This document shows, piece after piece, positions 19,224 to 32,790 of a stretch of 34,257 nt of DNA. The stretch is from Elusimicrobiales bacterium (GTDB lineage Bacteria > Elusimicrobiota > Elusimicrobia > Elusimicrobiales > UBA9959). Position numbers and translations under genes: made by a program. Numbering within the stretch: the first letter of the stretch is position 1; the number at the start of each line of letters is the position of its first letter. Below the pieces are notes generated by a model that did not search any database, was not told where the DNA came from, and saw nothing but the letters and a program-made list of their open reading frames with translations. The stretch covers positions 1-34,257 of the forward strand of contig JAVHLJ010000027.1 of NCBI GenBank assembly GCA_031082205.1, written 5' to 3'.

Positions 19224-19289
19224 GGGCCTTCCGCTGATGAGGCGAAAGGCCCGATTTTCTCTAGTTATTGGGCCCGGTTTTCCCGGGCC
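19224..19289. terminator. Two hairpins downstream of the DnaE-like gene
   Basis: GGGCCTTCCGC (19224-19234) pairs with GCGAAAGGCCC (19242-19252) with one mismatch; on the minus strand it is followed by TTTAATTT, and on the plus strand by GATTTTCT. A second stem, GGCCCGG/CCGGGCC (19271-19289, loop TTTTC), lies nearer the gene end. Read on the minus strand they terminate the gene that stops at 19313. Confidence 0.75.
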
Positions 19290-19312: not shown

Positions 19313-21685
19313 TTATATCTTCACGCCTATGCGCCGCGCCTCGGCCATGTAGAGCGCGTAATTGCCCTGGTCCTGGCGGCCCTGCTCGTTCTCTATCAGG
19401 GCGGTCATGAACTCGCGCGGGTAATTGGCCTTGAGCCAGGCCTGGCGGTAGGCCAGCAGGGCGTTGGCGACGGCGTGGGCCTTGCAGAAGGCGTGGCCGG
19501 CGACGCGGGCCATCGCGTCGAATACGGCGCCGGCGTCCCTGGGGCCGATCTTCTTCTTTTTGGCGCCGGCGATGAATTCCTTGCGGAACTTGTCGGCGGC
19601 TTTTTCGTCCCGCTTGCCCAGCGCGCGGCGCAGCTCGGCGGCCGCGGAGGGTTTGAAGCCGCCCAGCAGTCCGGCGGCGGCCATGATCTGTTCCTGGTAG
19701 ATGAAGAGCCCGCGCGTTCCGCCCAGCACCGGCTCCAGCGCCGGGTGGGGGAGTGCCGGGGCTTTGGCGGCCTTGGCGGCGATGAAGGCGTCCAGCAGGC
19801 CGGCCTGCATGGGGCCGGGGCGGTAGAGCGCTATCAGCGCGGCCAGGTCCTCGAGGCGCGAGGGCTGCAGCTGCACCAGGTACTTCTTTACGCCCTCGGT
19901 CTCCAGGCCGAAGACGCCGGTGGTGACGCCGTGGGAGATGAGCGTCCAGGTCTTGAGGTCGTCCTCCGCTATCGCGGCCAGGTCGAAGCCGCGCGTCTTT
20001 ATGCGCTCGAGCGCCGACTGCTGCGCGTCCAGCGCGCGCTGGCCGGCCAGGTCGAACTGCAGGAAGCCCAGGGCCGCCAGGTCGCGCTTGCCGTACTGCG
20101 CCGCCAGGCCGCCGCGGCGGCCGGCGTTGGAGAGCGGCATGAAGCCGGCCGCCGGACCGGGCGTTATCACCACGCCGGCGTTGTCGGCGCCCGAACCGTT
20201 CTTTATCCCGCAGAGCCTGTCGGTGAAGTCGGCCAGCTTCTCCACCGCGGGATCGGTCAGCAGGTGCTTAACCTCGACCAGGTCCGATATCTCGCCGCGG
20301 TGATTGAACGGTATGGCCGAGACCAGCCGCTCCACGGCGGCGCGGTCGGCGCCCAGGGCTATGCCCAGGTCGCGGGCCAGGTTGCGCGGCTGCTTGACGC
20401 TGAAATAACCGGCGGCGGCCACGGCGTCGTCGCCGTGCTTCTTGGCCAGCAGTTCCAGGAACTTGCCGCGGCGGGTCTCCTGCACCTCCAAGGTCAGCGG
20501 GGGGAAAGGCGAGCGCGAGGTGTCCAGGAAGCGCTCGAAGCTGAGCCCGTACTTCAGCGGGTCCACCCCGGTCACGCCCAGCGCGTAGTTTATCAGCGAG
20601 CCGGCGGCCGTGCCGCGGCCGGGGCCGGTCAGCACGCCCTCGCTCCGGGCGCGGCGCACGGCGTCGGCCAGTATGAGGAAATAATCCTCCAGCCCCGCCG
20701 CCTTGACGGCTTTCAGCTCGGCGTCCAGCCGCGACTTCTGCTCCGCGGTAGGCTTGCCCAGGCCCTTGAGGCAGAGTTCCTTCAATTTCGCCGGCGACTT
20801 GAACGGCGGGACCAGCGGCTCCCCCTCGGGCAGTTTCACGTCGCACTTGGCCGCTATGGCCAGCGTGTTCTTGAGCGCCTCGGGCGTGTGCGAGAAAAGT
20901 TTTGCCATCTGCTCGGGCGTCTTGAAATAATATTCCCTGCCGCTGAAGCGGAACCGGTCCGTCGCGGAGACCAGCGAGCGCGTGTTGAGGCAGAGCTTCA
21001 CGTCGTGCGTCTCCCAGTCGGCGGGCTTCCAGTAATGGCAGTCGTTGGTGGCCACCACGGGCAATTTGGTCTTCCTGGCCACCGCCAGCAGGCCCTTCAT
21101 CGCTTCCGCCTGCTCTTTCATCCCGTTGTCCATCAGCTCGATGTAGAAGTCGCCCTTGGCGAAGAGGCCGGAGAGCTTGCGCGCCATGACCGCGGCGCCG
21201 TCCAGGTCGCCGCGCTGGCAGGCGCGCGCGATGGGCCCGGCTATGCAGCCCGAGAGGCAGATGAGCCCCCTGGAGTGTTTGAGCAGCAGGTCCAGGTCCA
21301 CCTTGGGGCCGTGGTTGAAGCCCTCCAGGTAGCTTTTTGATACGAGGCGGCAGAGATTGGCGTAACCGTCGGCGTTCTTGGCCAGCAGGACCAGGTGGTT
21401 GGCGTCCTTGTGCGAGCCCTCGCTCTTGTCGGTCACCGGCGTGCGCTGCAGGTAGACCTCGCAGCCGATTATCGGCTTTATGCCCAGTTCGCGCGCGGTG
21501 AAATAGAACTCGGCGGCGCCGTACATATTGCCGTGGTCGGTTATGGCCATGGCGGGCTGCTTCTGCTCCGCCAGCCAGCGCATGAACTCGGACGGCCGGC
21601 CGTGGCAGTCGGTGAAGCGCAGCATGCCGTCGAAAAGAGAATATTCCGAATGATTGTGCAGGTGTATGAAAGCGGCTTTAGCCAT
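19313..21685 (-). CDS. Short DnaE-like protein (DNA polymerase III alpha family) with a substituted catalytic motif
   Basis: The protein has 790 residues against about 1,100-1,200 for full-length DnaE. The N-terminal PHP domain is well preserved (FIHLHNHSEYSLFDG, AITDHGNMYGAAEF, IIGCEVYL, VVATNDCHYW). The polymerase part keeps GPGRGTAAGSLINYALGVTG, DPLKYGLSFERFLD, LQFDLAGQRALD and IALYRPGPMQAGLLDAF. The catalytic block, normally PD-hydrophobic-D-hydrophobic-DF, reads PPLTLEV (residues about 395-401), so the first two catalytic Asp positions are Thr and Glu or absent. The chain ends after the thumb/fingers region and lacks the HhH, OB and tau-binding C-terminal parts. No frameshift is seen. 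It may be an inactive polymerase retained for its PHP or binding function, perhaps an ImuC-like accessory; that is inference. Confidence 0.88.
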   Translation of the reverse strand: MAKAAFIHLHNHSEYSLFDGMLRFTDCHGRPSEFMRWLAEQKQPAMAITDHGNMYGAAEFYFTARELGIKPIIGCEVYLQRTPVTDKSEGSHKDANHLVLLAKNADGYANLCRLVSKSYLEGFNHGPKVDLDLLLKHSRGLICLSGCIAGPIARACQRGDLDGAAVMARKLSGLFAKGDFYIELMDNGMKEQAEAMKGLLAVARKTKLPVVATNDCHYWKPADWETHDVKLCLNTRSLVSATDRFRFSGREYYFKTPEQMAKLFSHTPEALKNTLAIAAKCDVKLPEGEPLVPPFKSPAKLKELCLKGLGKPTAEQKSRLDAELKAVKAAGLEDYFLILADAVRRARSEGVLTGPGRGTAAGSLINYALGVTGVDPLKYGLSFERFLDTSRSPFPPLTLEVQETRRGKFLELLAKKHGDDAVAAAGYFSVKQPRNLARDLGIALGADRAAVERLVSAIPFNHRGEISDLVEVKHLLTDPAVEKLADFTDRLCGIKNGSGADNAGVVITPGPAAGFMPLSNAGRRGGLAAQYGKRDLAALGFLQFDLAGQRALDAQQSALERIKTRGFDLAAIAEDDLKTWTLISHGVTTGVFGLETEGVKKYLVQLQPSRLEDLAALIALYRPGPMQAGLLDAFIAAKAAKAPALPHPALEPVLGGTRGLFIYQEQIMAAAGLLGGFKPSAAAELRRALGKRDEKAADKFRKEFIAGAKKKKIGPRDAGAVFDAMARVAGHAFCKAHAVANALLAYRQAWLKANYPREFMTALIENEQGRQDQGNYALYMAEARRIGVKI

Positions 21686-21757
21686 ATGGCCCCCTTGGCG
21701 CAGTCCTAATTTACCATTTTTGGGGCCCGCCCGCCGTCCGGCCGCGCAATAATTAAT

Positions 21758-29670: not shown

Positions 29671-32600
29671 ATGCCCAAGAAGCCGGCCAAAACCGCCGCC
29701 CCGGTCCTGGAAAGCGACAAAAAGCTCGCCTTCCCGCACGCGCTCCTCATAAGCGCCAGCGCCGGCTCGGGCAAGACCTACACCCTCACCCAGCGCTATG
29801 TCCAGCTCCTGCTGTCGGAAAAAGTCCCCAATAACGACCTCTCGTCCATACTGGCCGTCACCTTCACCAACAACGCCGCCAAGGAGATGAAGGCCCGCAT
29901 ACTGGGCTGGCTCAAGGACCTGGCGCTCGAGCGCGACGAGGAGAAAATCAAGGAGACCATGGCGCTGGTCTCGCTCTCCCGCGCCGAGGTCGTAAAGCGC
30001 GCCGGCGCGCTGGTCGAGCGCGTCATAGACAACTATTCCGATTTCCACATCCAGACCATCGACAGTTTCCTGGCCCGCGTCATGGCCGCCAGCGTGGACG
30101 AGCTCAAGCTCCCGCTCAAGGCCGAGATCACCATGGCCTACGACGTACTCATCGACCTGGCGCTCTACTCCATGTTCTCGCGCATAGGCAAGGACCTGCC
30201 CGCGGAGGAGATAGACAAGTTCCTCGCCGTCCTGCCCAAGAGCACGGCCTACCCGTGGAACCCCGTCACGCGCGTCAAGGAGAACTTCAACAGCTTCCTC
30301 AACCAGGAGGGCAAGACGGCCGGCTCCATCGCCTCGCCGCCCGGCGGCTGGGAACCCGCGCTGCTCAACAAGTTCAAGGCGGTGCTCAAAGAGACCAAGG
30401 CCCTGGTCGGCCGCTTCGGCCCCGGCCTGGTAAAGGCCAGCGCCGCCGCGGCCATGGAGTCCGGGAACATCACCGATTTCCTGGCGGCCTACAGCTTCAG
30501 GTTCGCCGTCTTCAACGGCCAGAAGAAGGCCAAGTTCCCCGACGGCTGGGAGCGGGACGTCGCCCGGCTGAGCGACCTGGTCATAGAGCTCACCGAGCTC
30601 AACTCCGCCGCCTATTACCATCCCTATGTGGGCATCTACGGCCGGTTCAAGGCCGAGCTCGAGCGCGTAAAGCGCGGCAAGACCGACGTCATCCACATAA
30701 ACGATATCGCCAAGCGGCTGGCCTCGTACATAAACGCCGACAATGTCCCCGAGGTCTACCTCAAGCTCGGCGAGCGCATCAGCCATTTCCTCATCGACGA
30801 GTTCCAGGACACCAACCGCCTGCAATGGGACGTCATCCGCCCGCTGGTGGAGGAGGGGCTCTCCAAGAACGGCTCGCTTTTCGTAGTCGGCGACATCAAG
30901 CAGGCCATCTACATGTTCCGTAACGCCGACTACCGCATCATGCGCGATTTCCTCGACAAAGCCGAGGGCAAGAAGGCCGAGCCCGAGCATATCTCGCTGG
31001 CCTCGCTGGGCGGCGAGCTCAAATACGCCGACCTGCCCGTCAATTACCGCAGCGACGGCCGGGTGCTCGAATACGTCGATTCGCTTTTCAAGGACAAGCT
31101 GAAGAACTCGCCGGAGCTGGTGGGCGAGGATATAACCGAGCTGACCACTTACGCCCAGAGCGTCCGGCCCGACCGCGTGAAGGACGGCTATGTCCGCACC
31201 GATGTCCTGGAGCTCGAAGACCCCGACGACCCGGCCGAGCAGAAGAAGTGGCTGCTCGACGCCGTCGAGGGCGCCCGCCGGCGCTACCCCCTGGGCGAGA
31301 TCGCCATACTCGTCGCCAAGAACAAGCGCATAGAGCCGGTCGTCGAATGGCTGACCGAGGCCGGCGTGCCGGTCGCCTCGCTGGGCTCGCTCGATATACG
31401 CAAGCGCAAAGTCGTGGCCGAGCTCCTGTCCTGGCTGCGCTTCCTTGAAAGCCCGTCCGATGATCTCGCCTTCGCCGATTTCATCACCGGCGAAGTCTTC
31501 ACAAAACTCACCGGCCTCTCGCGCGACGAACTGCGGGGCTTCATCTTCGCCGCGCGCCAGGAGGACAGGAACGCGCTCTTGTACGCCGCTTTCCGCAATC
31601 ACCCCAAGTACGGCAAATACTGGGAGCAGCACCTGGACCCCGCCTTCCGCAAGGTCGGCTACCTGCCGCTCTACGAGCTGGTCTCGCTGGTCTACGCCTC
31701 TTTCAAGGTCTTCGCCAACTTCCCCGGCGAGCAGGCCTTCCTGGCCCGGCTGCTGGACGCCGTCACCTCGCTCGAAGCCGAGGGCGTCACCAGCCCGCGC
31801 GCCTTCATCGAATACGCCTCCGGCGAGGACGAGGACAAGTCGAAAGTCTTCGCCATAGCCCTGCCCGAGTACATAGACGCCGTGCGCGTGATGACCTTCC
31901 ACAAGTCCAAGGGCCTGGGCTTCTCCGTGGTCATCAACCTGATGTACGACGAGCGCGGCCAGTCCGACCCGATGTACTTCGAGGAGCGCGACGGCGCCAT
32001 CAACGTCTATCACATCACAAAAGCCGCGGCCGAGCAGTCCGTGAAGCTCCGCCCGGTCTACGACGGCCGCAAGAAGGACTCCAATGTCCAGGACCTCAAT
32101 GTCCTCTACGTCATCTCCACGCGCGCCCGCCACGAGCTCTATAACCTGGTGGTCAAGAAGAAGCGCAAGACCGAAGCCGCCGAGCCCAGGCTGACCGACC
32201 TCTTCACCGCCTGCGAGCTGGGCAAACCCGCGGACCGCAAGCCCTCCGCCCGCCCGTCCAGCGCCCCCATGGAGATAGCCGCCCCCGGCCCGCGCCCCGA
32301 CCAGCGCTTCGACGCCTCAAAGCCCACCTATACCAGCTTCTTCGAGACCGCCGAGGGCGAACTGGTTCACGGCATCCTCGCCCGGTTCATAGAACTCCCC
32401 AAGGACCTGGAGGGGGAGATCTACGCCGCCTTCGACGAACTCGCCCCCGCCTACCCCTTCAAGTTCGACAAGCCCAAAGTCGTCAAAAGCCTCCTCGCCT
32501 TCCTCAAAAGCCCCGAGGCCGCGCCCCTATTCGAATCCAAGCCCGGCCGCCAGGTCCTTGTAGAGGCCGAGTTCATAGACAAGAACGGCTCCCTCTTCCG

Positions 32601-32790
32601 CATGGACCGCGTCCTCATAGACGCCGACTCCGTCACCGTCATCGACTTCAAGACCGGCCAGGCGAACACCGCCAAATACACCCCCCAGATGAAAAACTAC
32701 CTGACCATCCTCACCGAGGCCTACTCCAAACCCGCCAAAGGCCTCCTCGCCTATGTGGATTTTAGAGGAATCAGTGAAATCCGGGGTTGA
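29671..32790 (+). CDS. UvrD-family helicase fused to RecB-type nuclease (AddA-like)
   Basis: The protein has 1,039 residues. The superfamily 1A helicase has Walker A ISASAGSGKTYTLTQRY (Lys35), the Ia motif VTFTNNAAKEMKARI, motif II LIDEFQDTNRLQW (Asp376, Glu377), motif III VVGDIKQAIYMFR, motif IV PVNYRSD, and motif V/VI VRVMTFHKSKGLGFSVV and VLYVISTRARHELYN. The C-terminal 200 residues hold a PD-(D/E)XK nuclease: FRMDRVLID (Asp979), VTVIDFKTG (Asp992, Lys994) and TPQMKNYL. This matches AddA/RecB enzymes that resect double-strand breaks and degrade foreign DNA. No AddB/RexB or RecC/RecD partner is visible, though it could lie elsewhere. The family C palindrome covers its promoter region. The stop lies 6 bp from the convergent XRE gene. 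Confidence 0.92.
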   Translation: MPKKPAKTAAPVLESDKKLAFPHALLISASAGSGKTYTLTQRYVQLLLSEKVPNNDLSSILAVTFTNNAAKEMKARILGWLKDLALERDEEKIKETMALVSLSRAEVVKRAGALVERVIDNYSDFHIQTIDSFLARVMAASVDELKLPLKAEITMAYDVLIDLALYSMFSRIGKDLPAEEIDKFLAVLPKSTAYPWNPVTRVKENFNSFLNQEGKTAGSIASPPGGWEPALLNKFKAVLKETKALVGRFGPGLVKASAAAAMESGNITDFLAAYSFRFAVFNGQKKAKFPDGWERDVARLSDLVIELTELNSAAYYHPYVGIYGRFKAELERVKRGKTDVIHINDIAKRLASYINADNVPEVYLKLGERISHFLIDEFQDTNRLQWDVIRPLVEEGLSKNGSLFVVGDIKQAIYMFRNADYRIMRDFLDKAEGKKAEPEHISLASLGGELKYADLPVNYRSDGRVLEYVDSLFKDKLKNSPELVGEDITELTTYAQSVRPDRVKDGYVRTDVLELEDPDDPAEQKKWLLDAVEGARRRYPLGEIAILVAKNKRIEPVVEWLTEAGVPVASLGSLDIRKRKVVAELLSWLRFLESPSDDLAFADFITGEVFTKLTGLSRDELRGFIFAARQEDRNALLYAAFRNHPKYGKYWEQHLDPAFRKVGYLPLYELVSLVYASFKVFANFPGEQAFLARLLDAVTSLEAEGVTSPRAFIEYASGEDEDKSKVFAIALPEYIDAVRVMTFHKSKGLGFSVVINLMYDERGQSDPMYFEERDGAINVYHITKAAAEQSVKLRPVYDGRKKDSNVQDLNVLYVISTRARHELYNLVVKKKRKTEAAEPRLTDLFTACELGKPADRKPSARPSSAPMEIAAPGPRPDQRFDASKPTYTSFFETAEGELVHGILARFIELPKDLEGEIYAAFDELAPAYPFKFDKPKVVKSLLAFLKSPEAAPLFESKPGRQVLVEAEFIDKNGSLFRMDRVLIDADSVTVIDFKTGQANTAKYTPQMKNYLTILTEAYSKPAKGLLAYVDFRGISEIRG

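Follow-up and report, generated by a model that had tools for sequence, protein, structure and literature searches.

The question raised by this locus is whether a DnaE-like gene with an altered polymerase site still codes for a selected protein, and what such a protein may do. The window, which is the whole stretch of 34,257 nucleotides that was analysed, comes from a 2.7-Mb Elusimicrobiota MAG; in a search of the genome contigs, the named relatives of the host replicase are also Elusimicrobia/Elusimicrobiota. The gene is found on the minus strand at 19313..21685 and codes for a truncated DnaE1 paralogue of 790 amino acids, as judged from the ORF, Pfam, orthologues and an AlphaFold model. Its frame is open from the ATG at 21685 to the stop codon at 19313, as expected from the unbroken 2.4-kb frame described in an earlier, sequence-only reading. 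Pfam matches are found to PHP (E 1.7e-47), DNA_pol3_alpha (1.6e-49) and DNA_pol3_finger (7.1e-44), and the orthologues in two other species of the genus, G001 and G002, have the same length, 790 amino acids. The AlphaFold model, made with 46 aligned sequences, has a mean pLDDT of 91.5 and a pTM of 0.87. The best PDB match of this predicted fold in Foldseek is Taq Pol III alpha (2hpi, TMq 0.92); the matches include 2hpi, 7pu7 and 2hnh, with Taq and Mtb Pol III alpha among them.

A leader common to the three species (21690..21722, minus strand) is formed by a CAAAAATGGTAAATTA block and the Shine-Dalgarno sequence AAGGGGG. The terminator-like hairpin found 60 bp past the stop codon (19224..19252, minus strand) may be a chance match, the region having four such hairpins where 2.8 are expected. 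An antisense ORF at 19475-21340 on the plus strand accompanies the gene in each of the three species, and we attribute it to GC-rich coding. PADLOC gave no match for the protein.

The same genome contains a second DnaE, which is complete (1179 amino acids, motif PDLDIDF): this is the canonical dnaE that was to be looked for elsewhere in the genome. The 790 amino acid protein shares with DnaE1 (Pol III alpha, C family) the succession of PHP, palm, thumb and fingers. It differs from DnaE1 in having no C-terminal third, in the loss of two catalytic aspartates and in being a second copy beside an intact dnaE. All domain boundaries are approximate. The fingers region (aa 557-790, 19316..20017, minus strand, from Pfam and alignment) ends the protein at about canonical residue 820 of 1179, before the HhH, clamp-binding and OB region. 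Compared with the 1179 amino acid DnaE, some 360-390 C-terminal residues are absent, and the missing C-terminal third reported earlier is real. Homology to PHP and to the Pol3 core is present, while HhH, clamp-binding motif, OB and C-terminal domain are lacking. No separate C-terminal DnaE piece was found in the host genome; a split or intein-split DnaE was rejected because its second half is not encoded anywhere in that genome. Elsewhere, two DnaE frames of 1632 and 1647 amino acids (G172:C4 and G178:C96), whose match is broken near NKSH, probably contain inteins.

The former PDxDxD catalytic block now reads PPLTLEV (aa 395-401, 20483..20503, minus strand, from the alignment), with the changes D396P, D398T and D400E. 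When the protein is aligned with E. coli alpha, D401 corresponds to P396, D403 to T398, D405 to E400 and D555 to D545. The DnaE1 catalytic triad (D401/D403/D555) is therefore incomplete: the earlier claim that the polymerase aspartates had been lost is right for two of the three (P396, T398), but the third stays. This D545 (20051..20053, minus strand) is the sole catalytic aspartate left, and the adjacent K543, the equivalent of E. coli K553, has become Q543. The GS motif of the nucleotidyltransferase palm is also degraded, with G358-T359 in the window copy (20609..20614, minus strand) and GA or GP in the two sister species, and the canonical NKSH of the fingers has become CKAH (aa 734-737, 19475..19486, minus strand). 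All three congeneric copies share the palm P-T-E, Q543, CKAH and nine of nine PHP ligands. A compensated frameshift in the motif was rejected, as no other frame of that DNA yields PDLDIDF. Since three genomes have the motif in common and no frame restores the canonical one, PPLTLEV is not a product of chance or an assembly slip.

The PHP domain (aa 1-290, with an approximate boundary, 20816..21685, minus strand, from Pfam and ligand alignment) retains its nine metal ligands, H10, H12, D19, H51, E76, H97, C147, D215 and H217 (HHDHEHCDH), in agreement with the retained PHP residues of the sequence-only reading. These ligands fit the nine-ligand pattern of PHP-type exonucleases and phosphoesterases, HHDHEH(C/H)DH, as defined in PMC12926913. 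In the alignment D215 corresponds to D226 of Mtb DnaE1, and D19 to Mtb D23. In Mtb DnaE1 the D226N change abolishes the exonuclease, and PHP exonuclease activity accompanies a complete ligand set (PMC5636811). This mycobacterial enzyme has the same nine-ligand site as our protein (PMC5636811), but its exonuclease has an editing function for the active polymerase with which it shares a chain, whereas here the polymerase site is gone. On the other hand, the PHP site of E. coli Pol III alpha stabilises the protein without activity, a purely structural role (PMC3666897). A PHP phosphoesterase role for the truncated protein would be consistent with its complete ligand set and with the deep conservation of the domain.

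In order to measure selection, we compared the three species. The truncated copies have an NG86 dN/dS of 0.22-0.28, while the replicases of the same species have 0.08-0.11; only this contrast is used, because NG86 dS is crude at 90% GC3. Differences between the closest pair number 69/43/163 at codon positions 1, 2 and 3. The observed amino acid identity is 0.885, while every neutral simulation with equal substitutions gave 0.787 or less. No stops or indels are found in 3 x 2370 nt. Neutral simulation predicts 1.8 premature stops, with 16% of the simulations having none, and the absence of stops is weak evidence in a GC-rich gene, so we rely on identity and codon-position pattern. The gene is not one decaying copy: dN/dS, neutral simulation and conservation in three species agree with the selected, catalytically altered protein proposed earlier.

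Within the genus, dN/dS is about threefold above the replicase in every domain (0.19 vs 0.06 for PHP). As all domains are relaxed, PHP included, the PHP site does not stand out in recent selection. Identity among the truncated copies of the genus is 75-80% in the fingers and 88-91% in PHP; the thumb is divergent from DnaE, yet its dN/dS within the genus is 0.15. Of the positions that never vary in 35 canonical DnaEs, the window protein keeps 39/41 in PHP, 31/46 in the palm, 3/10 in the thumb and 29/43 in the fingers. Identities between genera, for truncated copies and replicases respectively, are 67-71% and 68-71% in PHP, 49-58% and 70-74% in the palm, 21-34% and 59-78% in the thumb, and 52-60% and 74-79% in the fingers. 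On the longer time scale, PHP is the one domain whose conservation still equals that of the replicase.

The short form is present in five of the 101 genomes of the family and order: the window genome, G001 (88% identity), G002 (86%), G005 (57%) and G047 (53%). Its distribution in the family is patchy (5/59 genomes). The first genome scan scored at most three candidates per genome, among the matches listed, and 97 genomes were rescored. In the tree the five short forms are one clade (100/100 support) inside the DnaE1 radiation of the family, and the truncated copy has a single origin there. The G047 orthologue keeps both palm and PHP sites, with GS changed to GA. G005 keeps the palm pair of aspartates and has PHP D215N, equivalent to the inactivating D226N of Mtb, so PHP catalysis is not conserved across the whole clade. 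Close homologues with the aspartates, which would have suggested a single decaying copy, do not appear: only the distant ones (53-57% identity) have them, and the alignment of relatives shows the loss in the window and two congeneric species, without indels or stops.

DnaE2/ImuC should form a group of its own apart from DnaE1, but the truncated protein nests in Elusimicrobiota DnaE1 with 100/100 support, in a tree without a DnaE2 reference. No imuA or imuB is found among its neighbours, and the only Y-family ORF of the host genome (394 amino acids, DinB-size) is on another contig. On these two observations a DnaE2/ImuB mutasome was rejected, and the suggestion of a partner in mutagenic repair finds no support. 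ImuB, a catalytically dead Y-family polymerase kept as an accessory protein (PMC12926913), is alike in principle only: it belongs to an unrelated family and partners ImuA and DnaE2, none of which was found for our protein. The G047 genome contains a Y-family piece with a 166-aa frame (L136, G047:C184) besides a 408-aa one.

A viral origin was also rejected: identity to the closest relatives from phages or viruses is 38-40%, against 44-47% for cellular canonical DnaE, and none of the viral relatives aligned over the motif has lost the aspartates. Several viral DnaE-like ORFs of about 450-515 amino acids (L199, L206, L209, L210, L212-L219) end just before PDxDxD. Two others, L208 and L211, match also from about 371 to 774; together with the former they suggest a DnaE split at the active site.

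Rescoring of genomes with extra matches detected full-core truncated DnaEs in G180, G189 and G235 as well. Those of G189 and G235 lie beside the dnaE of their own genomes (100/100), and that of G180 with the dnaE of its family (100/99); from this placement, truncated DnaEs arose at least four times in Elusimicrobiota. They resemble the window protein in length (770-810 amino acids), in stopping soon after KANYP/KANHP, in the loss of one catalytic site and in having an altered GS motif (GA in these three). They differ in their independent origins and neighbourhoods, and G189 and G235 have lost PHP, not palm: both are PHP-dead and palm-intact. G180 (family f13) has an intact PHP (HHDHEHCDH) with a palm A-E-D and D545S, a case to be confirmed, as this MAG is 77% complete and 6% contaminated. 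All these proteins end about 13-52 residues past the KANYP/KANHP block, and each of the eight truncated DnaEs retains at least one of the two sites.

Other partial forms are found in the phylum. Proteins of about 400 amino acids matching DnaE over PHP only occur in nine f28-f29 genomes, that is, in all eight f29 genomes and G332, alongside full-length DnaE. The six that were checked have nine of nine ligands, and their C-terminal part has no assignment (L226-L230 and L233; G337, G334, G332, G340, G339 and G333). More degenerate DnaE pieces are found in the relatives G016, G008 and G034. Three smaller pieces were also noticed: one of 430 amino acids without PHP and with a palm E-H (L263:6711-8003), one of 550 without PHP and with a palm D-Y (L261:66-1718), and one of 261 with fingers only (L262:2548-3333).

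The flanks of the gene are conserved and ordinary in its genus. A UvrD-type helicase with a PD-(D/E)XK nuclease (AddA-like; 29671-32790 of the window) lies close to the gene in three species, and in G002 a single gene separates the two. The neighbourhoods of other truncated DnaEs are different. WYL regulators lie within 6.5 kb at 4 of 11 loci, against 0.09 expected from genome counts (P ~8e-7, a guide only, as the neighbour families were picked out post hoc and the 6.5-kb limit was likewise fixed with the data in view). A beta-CASP/MBL RNase family is found beside truncated DnaEs in G189, G016 and G235, and ClpX-like AAA ATPases in G008 and G235. TPR-CHAT proteases adjoin homologous sigma-like genes near truncated DnaE in G180 and G235; the sigma assignment comes from Pfam for G235 only, the G180 protein being tied to it by a 22% match. 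The G180 cluster (L264:6067-13541) joins truncated DnaE, AAA ATPases and this pair; that of G235 (L265:5442-19505) also has DnaB and MBL-RNase. These two clusters could possibly be an undescribed system. WYL and ClpX-like AAA clusters, in some cases with MBL-RNase and DnaB_C-like genes, also occur without truncated DnaE (L257 in G014:C7, L254 in G002:C47, L267 in G034:C98), so DnaE is an optional part. The MBL family and the specific AAA family of the cluster are absent from G000 and G001 (only 18-bit matches for the latter), so truncated DnaE is kept there without the cluster.

How could such a protein work? We tentatively favour a selected pseudo-polymerase whose PHP site may do chemistry, as a nuclease or phosphoesterase, on a DNA-binding scaffold. 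Its sequence, selection, single origin, ligands and predicted fold are directly supported; DNA binding, nuclease activity and a cellular role are what we infer. In this scenario dnaE1 would have been duplicated and the copy would have lost its C-terminal third (HhH, clamp-binding motif, OB fold and C-terminal domain), and with it any work as a processive polymerase in the replisome. In the window genus, the palm metal site would then have been destroyed and the PHP trinuclear metal site retained. The remaining core is predicted to fold like Pol III alpha; most likely palm, thumb and fingers would still bind DNA or primer ends, and the PHP domain would be a metal-dependent 3'-5' exonuclease or phosphoesterase.

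A non-catalytic structural or regulatory protein, whose fold could act, for example, as a decoy or competitor for replisome parts or DNA ends or could sense them, and whose PHP ligands would matter only for stability, is a doubtful but serious possibility. Either catalytic site can go in the clade, palm in the window genus (g1) and the PHP aspartate in G005; the E. coli site stabilises even when inactive (PMC3666897), and the thumb is constrained in the genus though far from DnaE. Other truncated copies derive from the host's own dnaE and adjoin WYL, AAA, TPR-CHAT and MBL genes, but the window copy has none of these neighbours, and the persistence of all nine ligands in g1 and G180, where the palm is free to change, would be left unexplained. 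Core-only DnaEs might even serve a mosaic conflict system as bait or as sensor subunits derived from the host, with the window gene as a member that left the cluster, which we consider quite improbable. In that case lineages would, time and again, have duplicated their dnaE, removed everything past the fingers, inactivated one of the two active sites and put the product next to WYL regulators, ClpX-like or other AAA ATPases, sigma-like and TPR-CHAT pairs, beta-CASP/MBL RNases and DnaB-like helicases; such proteins would report phage attack on the replisome or unusual DNA ends.

Slow decay of a redundant copy which has lost its job, with constraint inherited from before the loss, seems unlikely. 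The relaxed dN/dS in every domain, the lower identity of the fingers within the genus, the patchy presence and the degenerate pieces in relatives agree with it, but the catalytic loss is older than the split of three species whose copies have neither stop nor indel, the differences by codon position are 69/43/163, identity is far above neutral simulation, and the leader with its Shine-Dalgarno sequence is conserved. An active polymerase with a rearranged metal site is very unlikely: E400, D545 or other acids could serve and the predicted fold is intact, yet D401/D403, absolutely conserved in the C family (PMC3919608), are P and T, and K553, GS and NKSH have all changed. We give hardly any credit to an artefact of assembly or frameshift, or to the protein being one half of a split DnaE; the sequence does come from a MAG, but three independent assemblies agree, no other frame carries the motif and there is no orphan C-terminal piece.

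Our searches of the open-access literature yielded no description of such proteins from Elusimicrobiota. A 2026 survey deals with PHP domains and members of the Y family that are inactive; no inactive C-family polymerase was found in its available text (PMC12926913). A survey of the C family found the aspartate triad absolutely conserved, fragments without an intact site having been removed (PMC3919608). The view that C-family polymerases never lose their catalytic aspartates owes something to this exclusion of sequences that lack them. In a selected pseudo-polymerase with an intact PHP domain, natural mutation has pulled apart the two activities of Pol III alpha, and the opposite loss is found in the same phylum. 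Natural copies with opposite losses make the long-debated role of the lone PHP domain directly testable. The recurrent truncation and the neighbourhoods hint at an undescribed gene system.
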